Shown here: positions 7,459 to 28,192 of the stretch, in pieces
How positions within the stretch are numbered: position 1 is the first letter of the stretch
Layout of the letters: each line of letters begins with the position of its first letter
From: Fodinicurvata sp. EGI_FJ10296
GTDB taxonomy: Bacteria > Pseudomonadota > Alphaproteobacteria > DSM-16000 > Inquilinaceae
NCBI RefSeq assembly: GCF_040712075.1
Contig: NZ_JBFCVL010000001.1
Coordinates: 7,501 to 71,500 of the forward strand
DNA length: 64,000 bases
Direction: 5' to 3'
Made by a program: the position numbers and the translations under genes
The notes under the pieces: generated by a model
Seen by the model: only the letters and a program-made list of their open reading frames with translations
Told to the model about the DNA's origin: nothing
The model's database searches: none

Positions 7459-7516
7459 GCATCGCAAAGTAATTTGATGGATTTCTAATCATTGAACATG
7501 CACACTGTCGGAATGA

Positions 7517-18038: not shown

Positions 18039-20999
18039 ATGATGATCGATCGTATAAATAAGATTACGAAAAAATTGTCATCTGCAGAGAAGGCCGACTT
18101 TCCAGCGTTAATAGAGCACATTTTGCTGGAGATCTCTGCTTCTTCGCACTCGGATTCAGCCTTGTTCAGCCAGATATCCGCTGACGCAACTTTATTCAGC
18201 ATCGCGTCCCCTGATTCTACGGCACTTTCGACCTCACTGGACCGCTACCATGCCGCCGCGATCGAAGACGCACGACGGCGGTTTACGGAATTGAGCATCG
18301 AGGAAACAGCCGCGGTTTGTGGATATCGCAGTCTGTCGCTCAAGGGGACGCTGTTCGACTATCGGCATCTGTTTCTGGAAACACCGTCCCAACCGATTGG
18401 CATCCTGACGCTCGCCGCGACCGGGCCGGCCGCGGACTTTGAGATCGACAGCCCCGAATTCGGGATCCTGCTGAACCTGTTCGTTATCGCGATGATCCGA
18501 ATGGAACGCAGCGCAATTCTCAGCGGATTGACGACAGCGTCGGCCGCGTCAAGCGGCAGAACGGCACTGGAGGACATTGCCCATAATGCGAGCGAGGCCC
18601 TTGGTGCAGATATCGTCCTGATCGGCGAGACGCGCCCGGAATGCGAGGCCGTCGACGTCCGGGCGATCGTTGATCGACGCGGCCCCCGGCACATCACGTC
18701 GTATCCGCTCGCCGGATCGCCGTGCGGGACCATTGTGCCTGATCAATGTCTGATCGTCGCCAATGACGTGGCGCACCATTACCCGCACGACGCCATGCTC
18801 GCCGAAGATGGCATCAAGGGTTACGCGGGGCTTGGACTTCAGGACGCAGACGGCAGAAGCATCGGCCTTCTTGTTGCCCTGTTCCGCGACCGCATCATTC
18901 TTCGCCATCGGATAGAGAAAGTTATCCGGACCTTCGCCCAGCGTGCCGGATCCGAAATCCTGCGGGAACGAACCGAACGCTCGCACGCCGATATGCAGCA
19001 ACGTCTGAAGCAGATCGTGGACGAGATCCCGGACGGACTTGTCGTCCTGGACGGTCACGGCCGCATCGCCTTCTGCAACCCGGCCGGCTCCGAAATCTTC
19101 GAAACATCGTCGGCGGAACTCGTTGGCGCGCGGATTTGCGAACGACTGGGGGTTTCGGCGGACGCGCTTCCGACATCCGGCTCCGCCGCAGACCACAAGT
19201 CGGGTAATGTGCCGGATCCCAGGCCCGTGGGTGCCAAGGCTTCCGATCTTGTAGGGCGAATTCTGTTTGCACCGAACCTCGGCAAGTGGCTCTCGCTGCG
19301 CGGCTATGCCAATCAGGACAACCGGACGCTGTTCTTGCGGGATATCAGCGAATACGCCGAACGGGAAAAACGGTATCAGGAGCTCTCGACCCTCAATCGG
19401 CGGTTCCTGGAATGCTCGCCTGACATCATTACCACCATCGATCGACAGAGGCGGCTCGTCTTTGTCAGCGATCGGTGCCGGGATGTGCTGGGATACGAAC
19501 CCTCGGAGATGATCGGCCGCCATACCTGGGAATTCATACATTCCGAGGATCAGGAACTCACCGCACGTCATGCCGCCGACAACCGCACCCACGAGGGGAC
19601 GGGCACGGTCGAGAACCGCTATCTTCGGAAGGACGGCACTGCAGTGCCCATACTGTGGGCATCGGTCTGGTCAGACGAAGACGACATGGGTTTCGCCGTC
19701 GGCCGTGACATGTCCCCCTGGCGTCAGATGGAATTGCGCGTCCGCGAGGCGCAACGGGTCGAAGCGCTTGGCCGTCTGACCGGCGGCATCTCCCATGACT
19801 TCAACAATCTCCTTGCCGTGGTCATGGGCAACGCCGAGATGCTGGCCGATGCGCTCGAAGGTCAGGAATCAATGGCGCGCATGGCCAACCTGATACTGTC
19901 GGCCGCCGCGCGCGGGCGCGATCTGAACGAGCGCCTGCTGACCTTCGCGCGCCAGAAAGCGCTGACGCCGGCCGTTGTCGATCTGGCTGAATTGCTCGAA
20001 CGATTCGAACCCCTGATCCAGCAGGCCATCGGTCCGCGCATTCGGCTGGCGCTGCGCTTTGCGCCGGATCTGCCGGCAGTGACCGTCGATGTCACACAGC
20101 TTGAGGCCGCCGTCCTGAACCTGGCAATCAATGCGCGGGACGCCATGCCCCGGGGTGGCGTTCTGGGCATTCGCGCTTCCCGGACCGACATTTATCAGGA
20201 AGAGCAGATCGACAGCGGGATCCTCGCTCCCGGACCGTATGTTCGACTCTCGGTCAGCGACAGCGGAACCGGCATGACGGACGACGTTCGCAGACGAGCC
20301 TTTGACCCGTTCTTCAGCACCAAGGATGCCAGCAAGGGGTCCGGCCTGGGTCTCAGCACGATCCACGGTTTCATGAACCAGTCCGGGGGCGGGATCTCGA
20401 TCGATACCGCGCCGGATATCGGCACCGTCGTCCATCTCCATTTTCCAGCGCCGCAAATTCAGGACGCCTCCGGAAGAAGCCGCCCCGGCGCCCCCGACGA
20501 AAAAACCGATCGAAACGCGGTTTCCCAAACCGATGCCCCGCTGCCGTCATCCATGCCGGTTGCCGCCGGCAGCGCTGAACAAACCTGCATTCTGGTCGTC
20601 GAGGATGACCCGATGGTCTGGGAATATGTCACCGGCCTTCTGGAGGGGCGGGGCTATGACGTTGTCGCCGCCGAAACCGCCACACAGGCGCTGACAATTC
20701 TGGAACGCCGCATCGCCGGTGCGCATGATCCGGGCAACGGCCATCCCGTCGACCTCGTCCTCAGCGATATCGTGCTGCCCGACGGCATGGACGGCATAGC
20801 CCTCGCCCGACGGCTGCGCGACCTTTATCCGGGCATTCCGATACTGCTGACGACCGGGTATTACCAGAATGCCGGTGCACAGACATCGGACGGATTGGCC
20901 GAGGCCGGTCTCGGCGACGTCGAAATCATCCGCAAACCATATCGGCCCGGCGATCTTACGTCGAAGATCGCCGAGGTGATGAAGCAGCAGTTGTCCTGA
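18039..20999 (+). CDS. GAF-PAS-PAS hybrid sensor histidine kinase with receiver domain
   Basis: 986 residues, no membrane helix. Order: N-terminal region of about 165 residues that I cannot assign, GAF-like about 175-305, PAS about 320-440, PAS about 448-565 (SPDIITTIDRQ through YLRKDGTAVP), and a dimerisation domain with the phospho-acceptor at H586 in GGISHDFNNLLAVVMGN. The ATPase domain has NLAINARDAMPRGG, a DSGTGM G1 box and GSGLGLSTIHG. The receiver at about 865-980 carries the phospho-Asp in DLVLSDIVLPDGMDG and the Lys of IIRKPY. It is a cytosolic hybrid kinase; no dedicated regulator is adjacent. The first 70 codons are more AT-rich than the rest. Confidence 0.92.
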   Translation: MMIDRINKITKKLSSAEKADFPALIEHILLEISASSHSDSALFSQISADATLFSIASPDSTALSTSLDRYHAAAIEDARRRFTELSIEETAAVCGYRSLSLKGTLFDYRHLFLETPSQPIGILTLAATGPAADFEIDSPEFGILLNLFVIAMIRMERSAILSGLTTASAASSGRTALEDIAHNASEALGADIVLIGETRPECEAVDVRAIVDRRGPRHITSYPLAGSPCGTIVPDQCLIVANDVAHHYPHDAMLAEDGIKGYAGLGLQDADGRSIGLLVALFRDRIILRHRIEKVIRTFAQRAGSEILRERTERSHADMQQRLKQIVDEIPDGLVVLDGHGRIAFCNPAGSEIFETSSAELVGARICERLGVSADALPTSGSAADHKSGNVPDPRPVGAKASDLVGRILFAPNLGKWLSLRGYANQDNRTLFLRDISEYAEREKRYQELSTLNRRFLECSPDIITTIDRQRRLVFVSDRCRDVLGYEPSEMIGRHTWEFIHSEDQELTARHAADNRTHEGTGTVENRYLRKDGTAVPILWASVWSDEDDMGFAVGRDMSPWRQMELRVREAQRVEALGRLTGGISHDFNNLLAVVMGNAEMLADALEGQESMARMANLILSAAARGRDLNERLLTFARQKALTPAVVDLAELLERFEPLIQQAIGPRIRLALRFAPDLPAVTVDVTQLEAAVLNLAINARDAMPRGGVLGIRASRTDIYQEEQIDSGILAPGPYVRLSVSDSGTGMTDDVRRRAFDPFFSTKDASKGSGLGLSTIHGFMNQSGGGISIDTAPDIGTVVHLHFPAPQIQDASGRSRPGAPDEKTDRNAVSQTDAPLPSSMPVAAGSAEQTCILVVEDDPMVWEYVTGLLEGRGYDVVAAETATQALTILERRIAGAHDPGNGHPVDLVLSDIVLPDGMDGIALARRLRDLYPGIPILLTTGYYQNAGAQTSDGLAEAGLGDVEIIRKPYRPGDLTSKIAEVMKQQLS

Positions 21000-21033
21000 C
21001 CGCCCGCCATCCCGGCCCCTTATCCCCGTCCGA

Positions 21034-21390
21034 TTACCACTGGAGCCGGAGGCCTGCCTGACCGCGGTGGTCCCGATAACCTTGGCCGAACTATCCCTCA
21101 TGCGCCGCGAACAGCCTCACGCCGTTGCGAAGGACAGCGTCCAGAGACAGGCCCGCCTCGGCCAGATTGCGCGGAAGCGACTGTCCCTCGACTTCGAACG
21201 TATCGCTTCCCAGCAGCGATACCCGAAGGCTGGATGACGGCGAGGCCAGTTCGTGGCTCCATGCCGCCCGGCCGGTGACGGTCACCCCCTCGATACCGAG
21301 CGTACTGCCGTCCAGACGCCCCTCGACACCCAGACGGGACCGCAGACTTTCCGAGCCGAAACCGGCCACGGTCAGACCAGCGGTGCCGTC
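21034..21390 (-). pseudogene. Autotransporter beta-barrel C-terminus, remnant with in-frame stop
   Basis: Reading on the minus strand from 21390, DGTAGLTVAGFGSESLRSRL opens a stretch typical of the last strands of an autotransporter barrel, followed by VTVTGRAAWSHEL, LGSDTFEVEGQSLPRN and the C-terminal DHRGQAGLRLQW then TAA (21034-21036). A TAG at 21091-21093 interrupts it after RLFAAHEG. Aligned with the second remnant at 63046-63210, this TAG stands where that copy has Ser, so one base change explains the stop. No passenger domain or start is present upstream. The remnant lies between the kinase and the urocanase-like gene. Confidence 0.72.
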
Positions 21391-21462
21391 TCGGTGAATC
21401 CTTCCAATTCACCTAAAGGAGATAATCAGGCCACGCCGAGGCGATGTCGCGCCCCCTCCATC

Positions 21463-21494
21463 AAGCTTGAACAAGGAATAGCCTGTTCAAGCTT
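21463..21494 (-). terminator. Hairpin after the urocanase-like gene
   Basis: Perfect 11-bp inverted repeat AAGCTTGAACA (21463-21473) and TGTTCAAGCTT (21484-21494) with a 10-base loop, 22 bases past the stop of the three-gene minus-strand operon. There is no T-run on either side, so it may end transcription with help from Rho or protect the 3' end. Confidence 0.55.
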
Positions 21495-21516
21495 TCTCGT
21501 GCCACAGCCTGGACGC

Positions 21517-23187
21517 TCACTCCTCGGTGCGGATCAGGCCGATTCCGTGTCGGCCGGCGGCGTCGCGGGCGTCGTCGTAGCCGGCATCGGCATAGCGGAT
21601 CACTCCCAGCGCGGTATCATTGGTCAAGGCATGTTCGATGCGGCGGTCCGCAGCCGGGGTTCCGTCGGCAACCACGGTAACACCAGCGCTGGTCATATAG
21701 CCGGCATAGCCGCCACCGCCGGAATGCACGGCCACCAGATCGGCCATGGAGGAGCACAGGGTCATGGCGTCGAGCAATGGCCAATCGGCGATCGCGTCGG
21801 AGCCGTCGGCCATGTTCTCGGTCATGATGTTCGGGTGCGCCATGGCCGCGGCATCAAGGTGGTCGCGGGAGAAGGCCACCGGCGCCCGGACCTCGCCCGT
21901 TCGCACCAGATCGTTGACCGCCAGCGCCAGGCGCGTCCGCTCGCCATGCCCCAGCCAGGCGATGCGGGCGGGTAGCCCTTCGAACGGCACATGCGCACGG
22001 GCAAGTTGGATCCAGTTGGTCACGATCCGGTTGTCGGGAAACAGGTCCAGTACCAGATCGTCGATCCGGGCAATGTCTTCCGGTGCGCCCGACAGCACCA
22101 TCCACCGGAATGGCCCGATCGCGCGGCAGAACAGGGGCCGCAGATAGGCTTCGGTGAAGATCGGAATGTCGAAGGCGTTCTCCACACCCCCCTGTTTTGC
22201 CTGGGTGCGGATGAGATTGCCGTTGTCGAACACCTCCGCCCCGGCGGCCTGGAACCCCAGCATCGCCTGCACATGGGCGGCGATCGAGGCTCGCCCCTCG
22301 CGGATCAGCCGGTCAGGATCAGTGTCGCGCAACCCGCGCACCTCGGCCACCGACATGCCGCGGGGGATATAACCGAAGACCAGATCATGGGCCGATGTCT
22401 GATCGGTCACCACGTCGGGGATGACGCCGCGCGCCAATATCTCGGGGTAAATCTCGGCCGCATTGCCGATCAGGCCGACGGAAAGGCCAGCCCCCTCGGC
22501 AGCCGCCTGACGGATCATCGACAGCGCGGTTTCCAGGTCCGGCGCGATCCGGTCGAGATAGCCGATTTCCCGGCGTTTCTCCGCACGGTCAGCGTCGACG
22601 TCGACACAGAGAATGGCGGCCTTCGCCATCTTTCCGGCCAACGGTTGCGCGCCGCCCATGCCGCCCAGACCGGCGGTCAGGACGAACCGTCCCGCCAGAT
22701 CGCCGCCGAAACGCGCCTCGGCGATCCGCATCAGGATTTCGTAGGTCCCCTGGATGACGCCCTGACTGCCTATGTATTGCCAACAGCCGGCGGTCAGGCC
22801 GCCCCAGCAGATCAGACCCTTTTTCTGAAGATCGTAGAACACATCGGCCTTCGCCCACTGGCCGACGATATTGCAGTTGGCCATGATGACCAGCGGCGCT
22901 TCGGCATGGGTTTTCAACAACCCGACCGGCTTGCCCGACTGGATAATCAGGGTCTGGTCCTCGTCCATTGCCAGCAGATTGGCTACAATTGCCCTCAGTG
23001 CCGGCCAATCGCGCGCCGCCCGGCCCAGCGCGGCGTAAACGACCAGATTGTGCGGATCCTCGGCCACCGACAGCACATTCTCCAGCAGCCGCAACAGCGC
23101 CTCCTGCCGCCAGCCCCGGGCGCGGAGGGTCGGACCGCCGGGAACCGGGAAGTCGGGATGGCGGGGGGGCGAAACGGCGTAGGCCAT
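21517..23187 (-). CDS. Urocanase family hydratase (urocanate or thiourocanate hydratase)
   Basis: 556 residues, the usual urocanase length. The family is clear: TAGCWQYIGSQGVIQGTYE, the NAD-binding GLGGMGGAQPL, VENAFDIPIFTEAYLRPLFC, and RAIGPFRWMVLSGAPEDI with the active-site-region Cys. The stretch that in HutU reads roughly HHGGGVGMGYS is altered here to VHSGGGGYAGYMTSAG. Its operon partners are not hutI/hutG but a DUF917 protein and a lyase without the MIO triad. From that context I infer thiourocanate (ergothioneine catabolism) rather than urocanate as substrate; the sequence alone does not prove it. It uses tightly bound NAD+ and is cytosolic. Confidence 0.88.
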   Translation of the reverse strand: MAYAVSPPRHPDFPVPGGPTLRARGWRQEALLRLLENVLSVAEDPHNLVVYAALGRAARDWPALRAIVANLLAMDEDQTLIIQSGKPVGLLKTHAEAPLVIMANCNIVGQWAKADVFYDLQKKGLICWGGLTAGCWQYIGSQGVIQGTYEILMRIAEARFGGDLAGRFVLTAGLGGMGGAQPLAGKMAKAAILCVDVDADRAEKRREIGYLDRIAPDLETALSMIRQAAAEGAGLSVGLIGNAAEIYPEILARGVIPDVVTDQTSAHDLVFGYIPRGMSVAEVRGLRDTDPDRLIREGRASIAAHVQAMLGFQAAGAEVFDNGNLIRTQAKQGGVENAFDIPIFTEAYLRPLFCRAIGPFRWMVLSGAPEDIARIDDLVLDLFPDNRIVTNWIQLARAHVPFEGLPARIAWLGHGERTRLALAVNDLVRTGEVRAPVAFSRDHLDAAAMAHPNIMTENMADGSDAIADWPLLDAMTLCSSMADLVAVHSGGGGYAGYMTSAGVTVVADGTPAADRRIEHALTNDTALGVIRYADAGYDDARDAAGRHGIGLIRTEE

Positions 23188-23239
23188 GGTCGCGGGCTTT
23201 CGATTAGTCTGAATCGGGGTTCAATTTCCTGGTCCGGGC

Positions 23240-24334
23240 TCAGGGGGCGAGCGCGTAATCGGCGATCGACAGGCCGAGCGCCTTTTCCACCGGCGGATAG
23301 ACGCTGGCGTCCCGCACACCGGCCGACAACGGGATCACCGATTTCGGCACATGCAGAATGTGAACCTTCATGCCCGGGCGAAGCTGCCCGACGCTGAGCG
23401 GCTCACCCTTCGGCGTCAGGGTGGTGATGATATCGGGAAACGTCGCCAGACGGCGGCCATCGGCGGACACGATGGCCATGTATTCGTTCATCACATGCAG
23501 GGTCAGCGCCTCGTCGCCGCGCCCGACCGTGACCGTGCCGATGTCGAAAGCTTCGGCGGTGTAAACGATATCGACGGCCGTGACCTCGCCCCCGGTGGCA
23601 AGCAGCGTGCCATCCACCGCCTTGACGATGGCGTCGACGACGGCCCGGCCGCCCGATGGCTCGGCTGCCAGAATCGCCTCACCAAGCGACAGCGCCAGTG
23701 AGATACCGCCAAGCGCGGCGTTATCGCGGACATAGGCGGCCGAAACCGGATTGCGGCACGAGGCGATGAACCCGCCGGACATATCCGCCGCCGTACGCAG
23801 TACCGGCGACACCCGCCCGGTGGCGCCGCGGATGACCATTTCGATATAGCGATCCACGTCGCGGTTGCCGCCCACGGCGGTCTGGATCATCGGTTCCGGC
23901 GATCCGGCCAGCCCGATCGCCCCCATATCGCCGGTCGGATGAGCGCGCATGTCGCCGACAGCGTCGACAACCCTTGTCCCCAGCACCGCCGAGGGCAACC
24001 AGCCGTTCAGCGTCGACGACCGGCCGTTCTGGCCGACCATCAGCCCGGCGACCGGTTCGCCCAGCGCATCCTGCAGCAGTTCAACGGCCTTGATATAGTC
24101 GACCCCGCGCATTTCCCACGGGGTGGTCGAGGCCGGCGCACCGATGGCGGCGGCCGTGGCGACCCAGTCGGCGTCGTCCAGTTCATCGACCGAGACCAGC
24201 TCCGGCTTGCCGATACTGACGGCGGCATTGCCCAGCATGCGGCCGTGGTCGGCCCAGCCGCCACCACCGGCGGCATAGACGGAACCGCCCCTGACAGCGG
24301 CCTCGACGTCCTTTTCGGTCAGGATGCGGCCCAT
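23240..24334 (-). CDS. DUF917 / S-methyl-thiohydantoin desulfurase family protein
   Basis: 364 residues covering the whole family length. N-terminal block: ILTEKDVEAAVRGGSVYAAGGGGW, then ELDDADWVATAAAIGAPASTT and NGRSSTLNGWLPSAVLG. The C-terminal domain begins near DIVYTAEAFDIGTVTV and ends with IHILHVPK-like and YPPVEKALGL segments. The family was long called DUF917. A characterised branch removes sulfur from a thiohydantoin intermediate in ergothioneine-type catabolism. It is the middle gene, 53 bases after the urocanase homologue's start on one side and 62 bases from the lyase on the other. That context makes a thiohydantoin desulfurase role the best inference. Confidence 0.82.
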   Translation of the reverse strand: MGRILTEKDVEAAVRGGSVYAAGGGGWADHGRMLGNAAVSIGKPELVSVDELDDADWVATAAAIGAPASTTPWEMRGVDYIKAVELLQDALGEPVAGLMVGQNGRSSTLNGWLPSAVLGTRVVDAVGDMRAHPTGDMGAIGLAGSPEPMIQTAVGGNRDVDRYIEMVIRGATGRVSPVLRTAADMSGGFIASCRNPVSAAYVRDNAALGGISLALSLGEAILAAEPSGGRAVVDAIVKAVDGTLLATGGEVTAVDIVYTAEAFDIGTVTVGRGDEALTLHVMNEYMAIVSADGRRLATFPDIITTLTPKGEPLSVGQLRPGMKVHILHVPKSVIPLSAGVRDASVYPPVEKALGLSIADYALAP

Positions 24335-24395
24335 CGATCATTCTCCTCGGTCCGTTTGACGAAATGCAGTTTCGCGCCGGCGTTTCCGCCGCAGG

Positions 24396-25940
24396 TTACG
24401 GGTTCAGATCGAGCGCGAAAAATGCGTCCATCTCGGGCAGCGGCGCCATCTCGATCAATTCCTGAAGCCGCTCTGCCGATCCCAGATCCCGCTCGATCGC
24501 CTCGACTTCGGATGAGAGCGGGCGATCGACCTCGTAAAAGGCCGCATGCTGGCGCACGACATCATAGATCATCCCCGGCACACCGCGCGGGCGATCATCC
24601 AGAATGTCCATCGCCTGTGCCGACAGCAGGCCTTCCAGCGCCGCGAGCCGGCGCAGGGCGCGGACCTGGCGCTCGAAGCGCTCGACAACCAGCGGCAGGA
24701 AGGCGGCTTCGTCCTCGACCCCGCCGGCGACGACAAGCGACTGCGCCGACACTGGTGCCGCCATCGACAGCACACGGGCGAACAACTCACCCGCCAGTTT
24801 GATGATCGGCCCGAAACCGGTGGCGATCTTTCCGGCCGGGACCAGATTGACCGGCAGACCGCGACGGTTGCCGTTGCCGAGAATGACGCAGCGATTGAAC
24901 GAATTGCGGGCAGCGTGGGAAAGCGCGATCTGGGCCGACTGCAGGAACACGGTGACATCCAGCGGCAGCGAGCCGCCGGAGGTCAGAACCTCGCCGCCGA
25001 CGACCACGGGGTTGTCGTCGGTCCGGCCGGTTGCCGCCAGCACTGTGTTGCCAGCGTTGGTCAGAGTCTGAATCGTGGTGCCGAAAACCTGCGACATCAT
25101 CCGCAGCGAAAGTTGATCCTGGACATGGGTGGCGTCCGGCCACTCCCAGCCGCGCGCGTTTTCGACCAGCCATGCGCCAATGCTGGCTTCGTGCTCGGTC
25201 CCGACATGGGCGACCGCCTTCCACGGATCGCGCGAGGCCCCCAGCGCCCCGGCGGTGGTCAGGCTGGTCGCCATCAGCATCCGCACGGTCCGGGCGGCGC
25301 GGCTAATGGCATCGGCGGCCGCGGCATAACCAACGGCGTTGACTGAAATCGACGCCAGGCTGTCACGCGGCTCCATCGGCATCGGCGACAGCCCCGCCTC
25401 GGCCAGCGCCGCGTCGGCCGGCAGACGACGGCCCTGATAGACCGCTTCGCCGACACCGGTCAGCACGGCGCCGATCTGGCCCATAAGGCCGATATCCGCG
25501 CAGCCGATGGAACCGGTGCGGCGAACGACCGGGATCACGCCGGCTTCGAGCAACTTGATGAACGCATCGACGAAGGCGGTGGACACGCCTACCCGGCCGG
25601 TCAGCGCGGTGTTGACGCGGATCGCAATCGCATTGCGCACGACCGACGGCGGGAACGGGTCGCCGGTGCCGAAATGGTGCGCACGGACCAGACCGATGTT
25701 GAAGGTTTCGTAGTCTTCTGGCGACCACTCGACATCCTTCATGGCGCCGACACCGGTCGTGGCTCCGTAGACCGTCAGCCCTGCCGCGATCCGATCCTCG
25801 ACCACCAGCCGCGCCTGGCGGACCCGATCAAGGGCGGCGGGGTCCGCTTTTGGTACCGCTGCGCCCGATCCGATGCGCGACAACGTGGCGAAGTCGAGCG
25901 CCGACCCCTTCAGCACGATGCTGTCTGGTGAATAACTCAT
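24396..25940 (-). CDS. Aromatic amino acid lyase family protein lacking the MIO triad (ergothionase-like)
   Basis: 514 residues with the histidine/phenylalanine ammonia-lyase fold: VYGATTGVGAMKD near 58-70, LVRAHHFGTGDPFPP, and RVNTALTGRVGVS. Where HutH has GSVG followed by Ala-Ser-Gly (which self-cyclises to the MIO electrophile), this protein has GSIG followed by C147-A148-D149. I confirmed the codons TGC GCG GAT on the minus strand. Without the central Ser no MIO can form, so histidine deamination by the normal route is unlikely. Ergothionases are HAL relatives that eliminate trimethylamine instead. First gene of the operon, with the operator-like palindrome at 26000-26017 upstream. Confidence 0.85.
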   Translation of the reverse strand: MSYSPDSIVLKGSALDFATLSRIGSGAAVPKADPAALDRVRQARLVVEDRIAAGLTVYGATTGVGAMKDVEWSPEDYETFNIGLVRAHHFGTGDPFPPSVVRNAIAIRVNTALTGRVGVSTAFVDAFIKLLEAGVIPVVRRTGSIGCADIGLMGQIGAVLTGVGEAVYQGRRLPADAALAEAGLSPMPMEPRDSLASISVNAVGYAAAADAISRAARTVRMLMATSLTTAGALGASRDPWKAVAHVGTEHEASIGAWLVENARGWEWPDATHVQDQLSLRMMSQVFGTTIQTLTNAGNTVLAATGRTDDNPVVVGGEVLTSGGSLPLDVTVFLQSAQIALSHAARNSFNRCVILGNGNRRGLPVNLVPAGKIATGFGPIIKLAGELFARVLSMAAPVSAQSLVVAGGVEDEAAFLPLVVERFERQVRALRRLAALEGLLSAQAMDILDDRPRGVPGMIYDVVRQHAAFYEVDRPLSSEVEAIERDLGSAERLQELIEMAPLPEMDAFFALDLNP

Positions 25941-25995
25941 GGCCGCCTTGCCTGATGCCGTTTCGGGAGGTTTCCCCGATCTTTGACATTAAGAC

Positions 25996-26023
25996 ATTCT
26001 ATCCCTGCCAAGGGATATCCCAA
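25996..26023 (-). promoter_or_regulatory. Putative promoter with operator palindrome upstream of the lyase gene
   Basis: Minus strand: TTGGGA (26023-26018), a 16-base spacer, then TAGAAT (26001-25996), which resemble -35 and -10 hexamers. The spacer is filled by a 7-bp-arm palindrome, TATCCCT-gcca-AGGGATA (26000-26017). A repressor bound there would block polymerase. It lies 56 bases before the lyase ATG. The regulator is not identified. Confidence 0.45.
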
Positions 26024-26104
26024 ATGCCGAACACATGGCACTAGCGCCCGAGGGATGGCCGCGGCCGCAATTCAAGGCTCAGTCGTGGCAGTGCAGCAGC
26101 GCGA

Positions 26105-26842
26105 TCACGCAGCAGGCTTGTGTCCGATGAAGATACATTCGTCCCGCTTGAGGCCGTAATGCACTTCTTCATCCATCGGGCGTCGATAGGCCAGCGTCGA
26201 GAAGCCGACGCTGTTCAAGCGGTCGGCGAAATCGGCACCATAGAAGCGGCGGTGGTCAGTACCGGCAAAATGTACGAAACGCTTGGCCGAATCGACGATC
26301 GACGGATTCTCATAGGTTTCATCTCGGCTCAGATTGATGGGCACCGATAGCAACGCTATGCCGCCCTGCTTCAGGACACGAAAAAGCTCCGCCATGGCCT
26401 TTCGGTCGTCATCGATGTGCTCCAGCACATGATGGGCAATGACAAAATCAAATGATCCTTCGTCACGGTCGATGCTCGTCATATCGAGACGATTCTTCGC
26501 AAGCGACGCAAACAGATCGGCCGACTGGTAGTTCCGATTGTCCCGCTGAAGTTCGATGAAATATCGTTCCGGCCCGAAATGCAGAATTCGCTTTCCATCA
26601 AGGTCGATGCCGTTTTCCTGCAGGTACAGGTGCAAAAGACGGTGCCGCGGCCGGCTACCGCAACCCGCGCAACGCGTGTCCCAGGTGGATGGTTGGCCGG
26701 TCGATATGAATACGCCTGCATAGTCGCAAATCGGACAATGTCGGCGCACTTTCGTATGCTTGAATTGGTATCGATCTCTCCACCATGCCCCGGCAAGCCG
26801 ACGTAAGATTTGCCCGCGACCCGGCGCCCTCAGCCTGTTCAC
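26105..26842 (-). CDS. SAM-dependent methyltransferase with N-terminal zinc-finger-like motif
   Basis: 245 residues. The N-terminus has a four-cysteine cluster (CPIC ... CAGC) between about residues 36 and 62, as in methyltransferases that carry a small zinc ribbon. The class I fold follows: RILHFGPERYF (SAM-binding loop region, lacking the usual GxGxG), SFDFVIAHHVLEHIDDD (post-I/IV region) and LKQGGIALLSVP. This pattern is common in polysaccharide- or glycan-linked methyltransferases, but the substrate is unknown. It stands alone between the lyase operon and nagA; gaps of over 160 bases on both sides suggest its own promoter. Confidence 0.75.
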   Translation of the reverse strand: MNRLRAPGRGQILRRLAGAWWRDRYQFKHTKVRRHCPICDYAGVFISTGQPSTWDTRCAGCGSRPRHRLLHLYLQENGIDLDGKRILHFGPERYFIELQRDNRNYQSADLFASLAKNRLDMTSIDRDEGSFDFVIAHHVLEHIDDDRKAMAELFRVLKQGGIALLSVPINLSRDETYENPSIVDSAKRFVHFAGTDHRRFYGADFADRLNSVGFSTLAYRRPMDEEVHYGLKRDECIFIGHKPAA

Positions 26843-27007
26843 TATGATATTCCCTGATTTCCTGACAGCATAATTCCGATGTATCGCTGAACATATCTGA
26901 AATCAAGGCGAGAATACTTTTCATACTATAGTAATAATCCTTTCGTGCCATACGTTCACCGGCCCGGATTACTGGGCCGCCGCCCGTCCGGCGCCGTGCC
27001 AATGTTA

Positions 27008-28192
27008 TCAGCCCCAGCGGCCACCGCGCCAGACGCCGCCGACCTCGAATGCCGGCGTCAGATGGACAATATCGGCCGGCCCGCCGGGCACGAGCCGGCC
27101 AAAGCCCTGGTCGGCGAGACCGAGGAACTGCGCCGGGTAGAGCGAGGCCATGCGCAGCGCCACGTCCCGTTCGACACCAACCTGATCGATCATGAACCGC
27201 ACGGCACCGATCATGGTCAGATCCGACCCGGCCAAGGTGCCGTCGTCGAGCGTCAGGCGGCCAGCGTCGCGGCGCACGCGGCGGCCGTTCAGCATGAAGC
27301 TGTCGGCATCGACCCCCACTGTCGACATCGCATCGGTGACCAGTATCCCCCTGCCCGTTCCGCGCTTCGCGCGCAGCGCAATGCCAAGTGCGGCCGGATG
27401 AACATGGAACCCGTCGGCGATGAGGCCGCACCAGACATCGCCGGCGTCCAGCGCCGCGCCAACCAGACCTGGCGCCCGATGGCCCAGCGGGCTCATGGCG
27501 TTGAACAGATGGGTGACCGATCGCGCCCCCGCCGCAAAAGCGGCCATCGCACCGTCGTAATCGGTGTCGCTATGACCAATGGAAACAAGAATCCCGGCAT
27601 CGACCAGCCGACGGATCGTCTCGGGCGGCACCGTCTCGGCGGCGACGGTCAGTACCAGTGGCGCAACCCCCGCCTCTGTCAGCACCTGGACGTCATGCGC
27701 GTCCATGGCTCGGATCAGCGCCGGGTCGTGCGCGCCCTTGCGCGTCGCGGCCAGGAACGGCCCCTCCAGATGCAGGCCGAGACAACCCGCCACGCCCTGG
27801 TCAAGCGCCGAACGGACGGCTGCGATCGCCGCATCGGTCACCGCCGGGCGGTCGGTGATCAGGGTCGGCAGCAGGGCGGTGGTGCCGAAACGGGCATGAG
27901 CATCGGCCATCGTGCGGATGCCCTCCACAGTCGGCGCGTCATTGAACAGAATGCCGCCGCCGCCGTTCACCTGCACATCGATGAAACCCGGCGCCAGAAG
28001 ACCACCGCCAAGCTCGACAATCGCAGCATCCGCCGGCACCGCGTCCCGAGGCATCAAGGCGTCGATCCGGCCATCGCGGATCACCAGCGCCTGGTCGTGC
28101 CAACACTGCTCGCCGTCGAATATCTCAACACCGCACAGGGCTGTTACCGGGGGAGTTACCAGGGGAGTTACCGGGGCTGTAGGCTGGGTCAT
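27008..28192 (-). CDS. nagA: N-acetylglucosamine-6-phosphate deacetylase
   Basis: 394 residues of the amidohydrolase superfamily. Visible are GFIDVQVNGGGG (metal/lid region), HLEGPFLAATRKGAHDP with the metal-binding Glu, SIGHSDTDYDGA and VTHLFNAMSPLGHR with metal-site His residues, and VTDAMSTVG with the catalytic Asp. It removes acetate from GlcNAc-6-P to give GlcN-6-P in the cytosol. It is last in the kinase-regulator-deaminase-deacetylase operon, and its ATG overlaps the deaminase stop (ATGA). The N-terminus carries a VTP/VTA repeat from a 12-bp tandem repeat (28143-28178). Confidence 0.93.
   Translation of the reverse strand: MTQPTAPVTPLVTPPVTALCGVEIFDGEQCWHDQALVIRDGRIDALMPRDAVPADAAIVELGGGLLAPGFIDVQVNGGGGILFNDAPTVEGIRTMADAHARFGTTALLPTLITDRPAVTDAAIAAVRSALDQGVAGCLGLHLEGPFLAATRKGAHDPALIRAMDAHDVQVLTEAGVAPLVLTVAAETVPPETIRRLVDAGILVSIGHSDTDYDGAMAAFAAGARSVTHLFNAMSPLGHRAPGLVGAALDAGDVWCGLIADGFHVHPAALGIALRAKRGTGRGILVTDAMSTVGVDADSFMLNGRRVRRDAGRLTLDDGTLAGSDLTMIGAVRFMIDQVGVERDVALRMASLYPAQFLGLADQGFGRLVPGGPADIVHLTPAFEVGGVWRGGRWG
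28143..28178. repeat. 12-bp tandem repeat at the nagA 5' end
   Basis: Three imperfect 12-base units based on GTTACCGGGGGA encode the VTP-like repeats of the NagA N-terminus. Multiple-of-three unit length keeps the frame. Confidence 0.7.

Follow-up and report, generated by a model that had tools for sequence, protein, structure and literature searches.

A three-gene cluster of Fodinicurvata sp. EGI_FJ10296 predicted to encode the first three enzymes of ergothioneine catabolism

The 64,000-nucleotide stretch of Fodinicurvata sp. EGI_FJ10296 analysed here (the window; positions 7,501 to 71,500 of the forward strand of contig NZ_JBFCVL010000001.1, assembly GCF_040712075.1) contains a cluster of three genes that very probably encode the enzymes for the first three steps by which bacteria break down ergothioneine, the later steps being probably encoded elsewhere in the genome. 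Ergothioneine, an antioxidant that contains sulfur, comes from fungi and certain bacteria, and its utilisation proceeds in five steps, catalysed by ergothionase, thiourocanate hydratase, thiohydantoin desulfurase, ErtD (hydantoin-5-propionate amidohydrolase) and ErtE (N-carbamoylglutamate amidohydrolase). This order is reportedly that of Burkholderia sp. HME13 and others, and the reconstitution of the pathway is said to be due to Muramatsu in 2020 and to Beliaeva and Seebeck. The names given to ErtD and ErtE in NCBIfam agree with the last two steps. Our reading rests directly on the family assignments, the loss of a cofactor-forming tripeptide from the lyase, the association of the genes in other genomes and the presence of an ErtD-type gene; the chemistry proposed for the cluster follows the published pathway. 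The pathway being already published, what is new is a further member with a split arrangement, in which ErtD lies on another contig.

Family assignments and substrate of the cluster

The initial annotation placed three genes at 21517-25940 on one strand, which matches the open reading frames (ORFs) exactly, and named them as homologues of urocanase, DUF917 and histidine ammonia-lyase (HAL), which was confirmed by all three proteins scoring over the Pfam cut-off for the domains listed in Table 1. Transcription runs on the minus strand from 25940 to 21517 in the order lyase, desulfurase and hydratase, with 61 bp between the first two genes, 52 bp between the last two and a gap of 164 bp upstream of the lyase.

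Two substrates, ergothioneine and S-methyl-ergothioneine, had been proposed, and NCBIfam release 20.0, from which our protein family models were taken, contains separate models for the two branches. The hydratase passed the thiourocanate hydratase equivalog NF058530 (1006.2 bits, cut-off 930) and failed the S-methyl thiourocanate hydratase model (739 bits, cut-off 880). Likewise, the desulfurase passed the thiohydantoin desulfurase model NF058529 (574.3 bits, cut-off 440) and failed the S-methyl model NF058532 (276 bits, cut-off 450), indicating that the substrate is likely ergothioneine rather than its S-methyl derivative. Were S-methyl-ergothioneine degraded, the lyase would free trimethylamine, the hydratase would take S-methyl-thiourocanate and the desulfurase would free methanethiol, a route that shares its folds and its type of gene set with the ergothioneine one; moreover, the Pfam family is itself called S-Me-THD. 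However, both S-methyl models were failed by wide margins while both ergothioneine models were passed. In addition, a related genome, G101, encodes an S-methyl-type hydratase (891 bits, over the cut-off of 880) together with a desulfurase nearer to the S-methyl model (409.5 versus 262 bits, though short of the cut-off of 450), indicating that the NCBIfam models do separate the two branches. On these scores we rejected the S-methyl alternative, which we regard as highly unlikely, and retained ergothioneine as the probable substrate.

The closest solved structure to the hydratase is 7ned (779 bits, nearly full length; the next reached 607), which is listed as 'Urocanate hydratase' and which we take to be a thiourocanate hydratase. 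Among solved structures, the desulfurase has a single weak relative, 2o3i (E up to 1).

A lyase lacking the MIO tripeptide

The lyase failed the hutH equivalog (214.8 bits, cut-off 539.15), and no ergothionase model in NCBIfam release 20.0 matched it. Its best solved relative by sequence is the Treponema denticola ergothionase 6s7j, with 162 bits as against 137 for the highest-scoring chain annotated as a histidine ammonia-lyase. In the alignment, the residues Ala142-Ser143-Gly144 (Pseudomonas putida HAL numbering), which form the 4-methylidene-imidazole-5-one (MIO) cofactor, are replaced by Cys-gap-Ala, one residue shorter. The same Cys-gap-Ala was found in all 63 aligned lyases of the rhizobial type, two of which (L041 and L111) are the same locus, and 6s7j is also one residue short, with Glu-Gly at this site. 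This residue table covers lyases of at least 380 bits and 505 aa and so excludes, among others, L060 and L073, whose tblastn matches came in two pieces. We also compared HAL positions 53, 83, 195, 280, 283, 329, 414 and 416, whose roles in HAL we take as known. Tyr53, His83, Arg283 and Glu414 are retained in the window lyase, the rhizobial-type lyases and 6s7j, and these share Leu at position 280 (Tyr in HALs, but Phe in the mutant structure 1gkj that was aligned) and Ser at position 195 (Asn in HAL).

Predicted structure and phylogeny gave a similar picture. The lyase model (pLDDT 89.0, pTM 0.90) retrieved 6s7j as the top Foldseek match among the 50 best (TM-score 0.90, root-mean-square deviation 2.1), as against 0.83-0.86 and 3.0-3.8 for bacterial and other HALs in the same set. 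Two lyase trees split the sequences lacking the MIO tripeptide from those retaining it with support of 98/99 and 100/100. Judged by its sequence and predicted fold, the lyase is thus an MIO-less relative of ergothionase and not HutH. In the second tree (L154, L155 and L156 left out), the lyases of T. denticola and Burkholderia arboris grouped together (90/89), apart from the rhizobial type; given the program's warning of long branches there and the lack of an outgroup, the tree is compatible with either a single loss of the MIO or two.

The missing tripeptide also bears on whether the cluster could be a second hut operon using urocanate. The folds of lyase and urocanase are common to HutH and HutU, and the hydratase exceeds the broad hutU cut-off (696 bits versus 375). 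However, the lyase lacks the MIO and attains 215 of 539 bits for hutH, and the genome's own HutU behaves in reverse to the window hydratase, scoring 976 with the hutU model and 719 with the thiourocanate one. The initial annotation had held that its reading would fall if the proteins clustered with HutH and HutU in a genome devoid of other hut genes; instead, separate genes for HutH, HutU and HutF are present on contig C6 and for HutI on C2. No hutI, hutG or hutF was detected among the neighbours of the cluster scored with Pfam or NCBIfam, as had been claimed, and to our knowledge the desulfurase has no role in hut. A second hut operon was consequently rejected on the missing MIO, the model scores and the separate hut genes, and we give it almost no credence.

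In the ergothioneine pathway, the lyase would remove trimethylamine to yield thiourocanate without the MIO cofactor, presumably unneeded because trimethylamine is already a good leaving group. The urocanase relative would then hydrate thiourocanate to thiohydantoin-propionate, from which the DUF917 protein would take the sulfur off as sulfide, leaving hydantoin-5-propionate. Alternatively, the lyase might act on an oxidised substrate, for instance ergothioneine sulfonate, which would make the cluster a version of the Agrobacterium radiobacter sulfonate pathway. The genomes with the closest lyases are rhizobial relatives of A. radiobacter. PMC13405746 lists among its references a 2019 paper on T. 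denticola ergothionase, Muramatsu 2013 (Burkholderia HME13), Yan 2022 (ergothioneine sulfonate pathway) and Feng 2025 (gut pathway), the sulfonate pathway being cited there for A. radiobacter. Nevertheless, as we understand the chemistry, such a route would not need a thiourocanate hydratase and a thiohydantoin desulfurase, both of which are here over their cut-offs, making this alternative very improbable.

Gene association in relatives and the later steps

We scanned a contig collection with a desulfurase alignment, confirming 401 relatives and keeping the best 80, with rhizobial or Hyphomicrobiales titles, so that the following counts describe near relatives only. In the stretches fetched around these 80 desulfurase loci, the hydratase and an ErtE-type gene were each present at 79, an ErtD-type gene at 74 and the lyase at 64. 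In 15 of the 16 genomes lacking the lyase in this stretch, a 58-68% identical one is encoded elsewhere, a single stop codon interrupting the match in two of the 15; in the remaining genome, a metagenome-assembled one, no lyase of the window type was found elsewhere. Across these chromosomal and plasmid loci, identity reached 68% for the lyase, 79% for the desulfurase and 80% for the hydratase.

The usual gene order in the relatives is lyase, ErtD, ErtE, desulfurase and hydratase; thus, unlike in the window, the rhizobial operons on plasmids of Rhizobium sp. SL42 and Ochrobactrum quorumnocens carry ErtD and ErtE between lyase and desulfurase. The SL42 genes are annotated, in order, as aromatic amino acid ammonia-lyase, amidohydrolase family protein, Zn-dependent hydrolase, DUF917 family protein and urocanate hydratase. 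The expectation that automated annotation would point to histidine degradation was borne out only in part: NCBIfam release 20.0 names the hydratase and desulfurase as enzymes of the ergothioneine branch, but has no ergothionase model that matched the lyase, and the SL42 genes carry the names just listed. In B. arboris, of the same genus as the characterised HME13 enzyme, ErtE and ErtD occupy one strand and the desulfurase, the hydratase and an MIO-less lyase (Gly-Ser-Ile-Gly-Glu-Ala-Asp-Ile) the other, with hydratase, desulfurase, ErtD and ErtE all over the NCBIfam cut-offs. Our genome resembles the HME13-type pathway in that its hydratase, desulfurase and ErtD pass the respective equivalogs and an MIO-less lyase lies in the cluster, and differs in that only lyase, desulfurase and hydratase are clustered, with ErtD on another contig, and in its carbamoylases (see below).

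Among 143 genomes, the desulfurase was over cut-off in three, namely the present one, G055 and G101. All three belong to the five genomes with an ErtD score above 500 bits (hypergeometric, 2e-5, at a threshold set post hoc and without correction for relatedness); at the curated ErtD cut-off, two of the three overlap (9e-4, relatedness likewise uncorrected). The desulfurase was over cut-off in none of the 16 other genomes of the same taxonomic family, which fits a lateral acquisition of the lyase-desulfurase-hydratase block. Base composition shows no sign of acquisition, the GC content of the cluster (0.657-0.672 over 21000-25499) not setting it apart from its surroundings.

The initial annotation had placed the late hydrolases away from the cluster and proposed looking for hydantoinase and N-carbamoylglutamate hydrolase genes elsewhere in the genome. 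The D-hydantoinase family gave 17 matches, many of them short, and the only one found over the ErtD cut-off lies on contig C3 (Table 1). It is 49% identical to the ergothioneine-linked ErtD of G055 and scored 551 with a profile of 73 ergothioneine-linked ErtDs, compared with 56-167 for four other hydantoinase-type genes. Preceded by a MarR-type regulator gene, it overlaps by 4 bp a gene of the carbamoylase family, which has six members over the TIGR01879 cut-off in this genome. The C3 hydantoinase would open the ring of hydantoin-5-propionate to give N-carbamoylglutamate, from which the adjoining carbamoylase, perhaps, would free glutamate; its choice for the last step is a guess from position.

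Several observations weigh against the ergothioneine reading. Identity of the lyase to T. denticola ergothionase is only 27%, and to the B. arboris cluster lyase 31%, compared with 25-29% to MIO-type lyases. Position 329 is Ser and position 416 Glu in the window and rhizobial-type lyases, versus Phe and His in 6s7j, indicating that the rhizobial type and 6s7j are not alike throughout. Three of the six carbamoylase paralogs were scored with the ErtE model NF058540 and none was over cut-off (269, 355 and 334 versus 520). With a profile of 79 ergothioneine-linked ErtEs, the six scored 280, 264, 217, 213, 207 and 192, the ErtD-adjoining one (213) ranking fourth. Furthermore, an ErtD above the cut-off (669) occurs in G006, a member of the same family, and one scoring 506 in G068, both genomes having no urocanase and no lyase; ErtD by itself is thus no proof of the pathway, and the case of G006 suggests that the role of this hydrolase may be older and broader. 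Finally, no transporter was found linked to the cluster, the nearest betaine-type ABC system found having an OsmF-type binding protein. The early part of the ergothioneine pathway, as originally proposed, remains the reading favoured by the equivalogs passed and the MIO-less lyase.

Surroundings, uptake and other lyase arrangements

Table 1. Cluster genes, flanking genes and distant candidates (positions are those of the window unless a contig is given)
Feature	Position	Strand	Remarks
MIO-less HAL-family lyase, putative ergothionase (ergothioneine trimethylamine-lyase), step 1	24396..25940	minus	ORF 514 aa; Pfam Lyase_aromatic
Thiohydantoin desulfurase (S-Me-THD/DUF917 family), putative step 3	23240..24334	minus	ORF 364 aa; Pfam S-Me-THD N/C
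Thiourocanate hydratase (urocanase family), putative step 2	21517..23187	minus	ORF 556 aa; Pfam Urocanase N/middle/C
Hybrid histidine kinase, convergent with cluster	18039-20999	plus	
Methyltransferase, upstream of cluster	26105-26842		
ErtD-type hydantoinase (hydantoin-5-propionate amidohydrolase)	C3:106784-108163		NF058538 622.4 bits, cut-off 600
Carbamoylase adjoining ErtD-type gene	C3:108160-109443		fails NF058540 (ErtE), 269 of 520
Betaine-type ABC system	C1:229084-233323		44% identical to ergothioneine-linked permease of G055; binding protein passes OsmF model

On the lyase side, the cluster is flanked by the methyltransferase gene and by genes like nagA and glucosamine-6-phosphate deaminase (Pfam/NCBIfam). 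The methyltransferase gene had no match in the tblastn results (1e-8) shown for 88 loci and was therefore not counted in the cluster. A promoter and terminator scan of 21000-27200 gave one promoter-like and one terminator-like site, not above shuffled sequence.

No match to egtD was obtained in the genome, the other ergothioneine biosynthesis genes not having been searched for, suggesting that the ergothioneine would probably come from outside. An uptake system, EgtU, is described in PMC9732360. Because its binding protein passes the OsmF model, the ABC system on C1 is only a weak uptake candidate. Two permease-type genes adjoining the hut genes (L005 1334-3842, G000:C6, G000 being the present genome) resemble the ergothioneine-linked betaine-type permease of G055. 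A second gene of the DUF917/S-Me-THD family lies outside the window (G000:C1:189071-190147; L043 9071-10147), adjoins a hydantoinase A-type gene and is about 4 kb from an SBP_bac_5 binding-protein gene; it matched no NCBIfam family at 1e-60.

Other lyase arrangements occur in related genomes. G101, an alphaproteobacterial genome of 2.7 Mb, contains 28 HAL-family lyase ORFs (L188-L193, L196, L198-L201, L042, L040) and seven urocanase-family genes. When aligned to HAL, 26 of the 28 lyases are one residue short in the MIO tripeptide, nearly all with x-Gly-Glu, and two keep Ala-Ser-Gly; these could perhaps be many enzymes for different histidine-type betaines. The beginning of contig C7 holds six of them, and five MIO-less ones lie in tandem on C6 (L042 8177-18459), beside the S-methyl-type hydratase (891 bits) and its desulfurase (409.5 of 450). 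G101 is also an exception to desulfurase and hydratase going with an MIO-less lyase: on its contig C3 (L040 7813-12605), a lyase that keeps Ala-Ser-Gly (Gly-Ala-Ser-Gly-Asp; 491 of 539 for hutH) directly precedes a desulfurase and a thiourocanate hydratase over cut-off. Its sister lyase (support 100/99 and 100/98) is found in G055 (L142 6869-11167, G055:C1), beside ErtE- and ErtD-type genes. The position of these two lyases beside pathway genes suggests a possible ammonia-releasing entry for an unmethylated 2-thiohistidine.

The conserved rhizobial-type motif, Gly-Cys-Ala-Asp, which the window lyase shares, differs from the Gly-Glu-Ala/Gly-Asp of B. arboris and Treponema. It is conceivable, though we hold it only tentatively, that the alphaproteobacterial type (Gly-Ser-Ile/Met-Gly-Cys-Ala-Asp) represents another line of ergothionases, whose loss of the MIO was independent of that in the Treponema/Burkholderia type, and that the pathway here is a mosaic, in which an acquired lyase-desulfurase-hydratase block feeds an ErtD that is older and under separate regulation, accompanied by a carbamoylase not orthologous to ErtE. 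NCBIfam models exist for hydratase, desulfurase, ErtD and ErtE, yet none for ergothionase matched the window lyase; the Gly-Cys-Ala-Asp motif, together with linkage to the desulfurase, would provide a simple rule for finding the alphaproteobacterial lyases.

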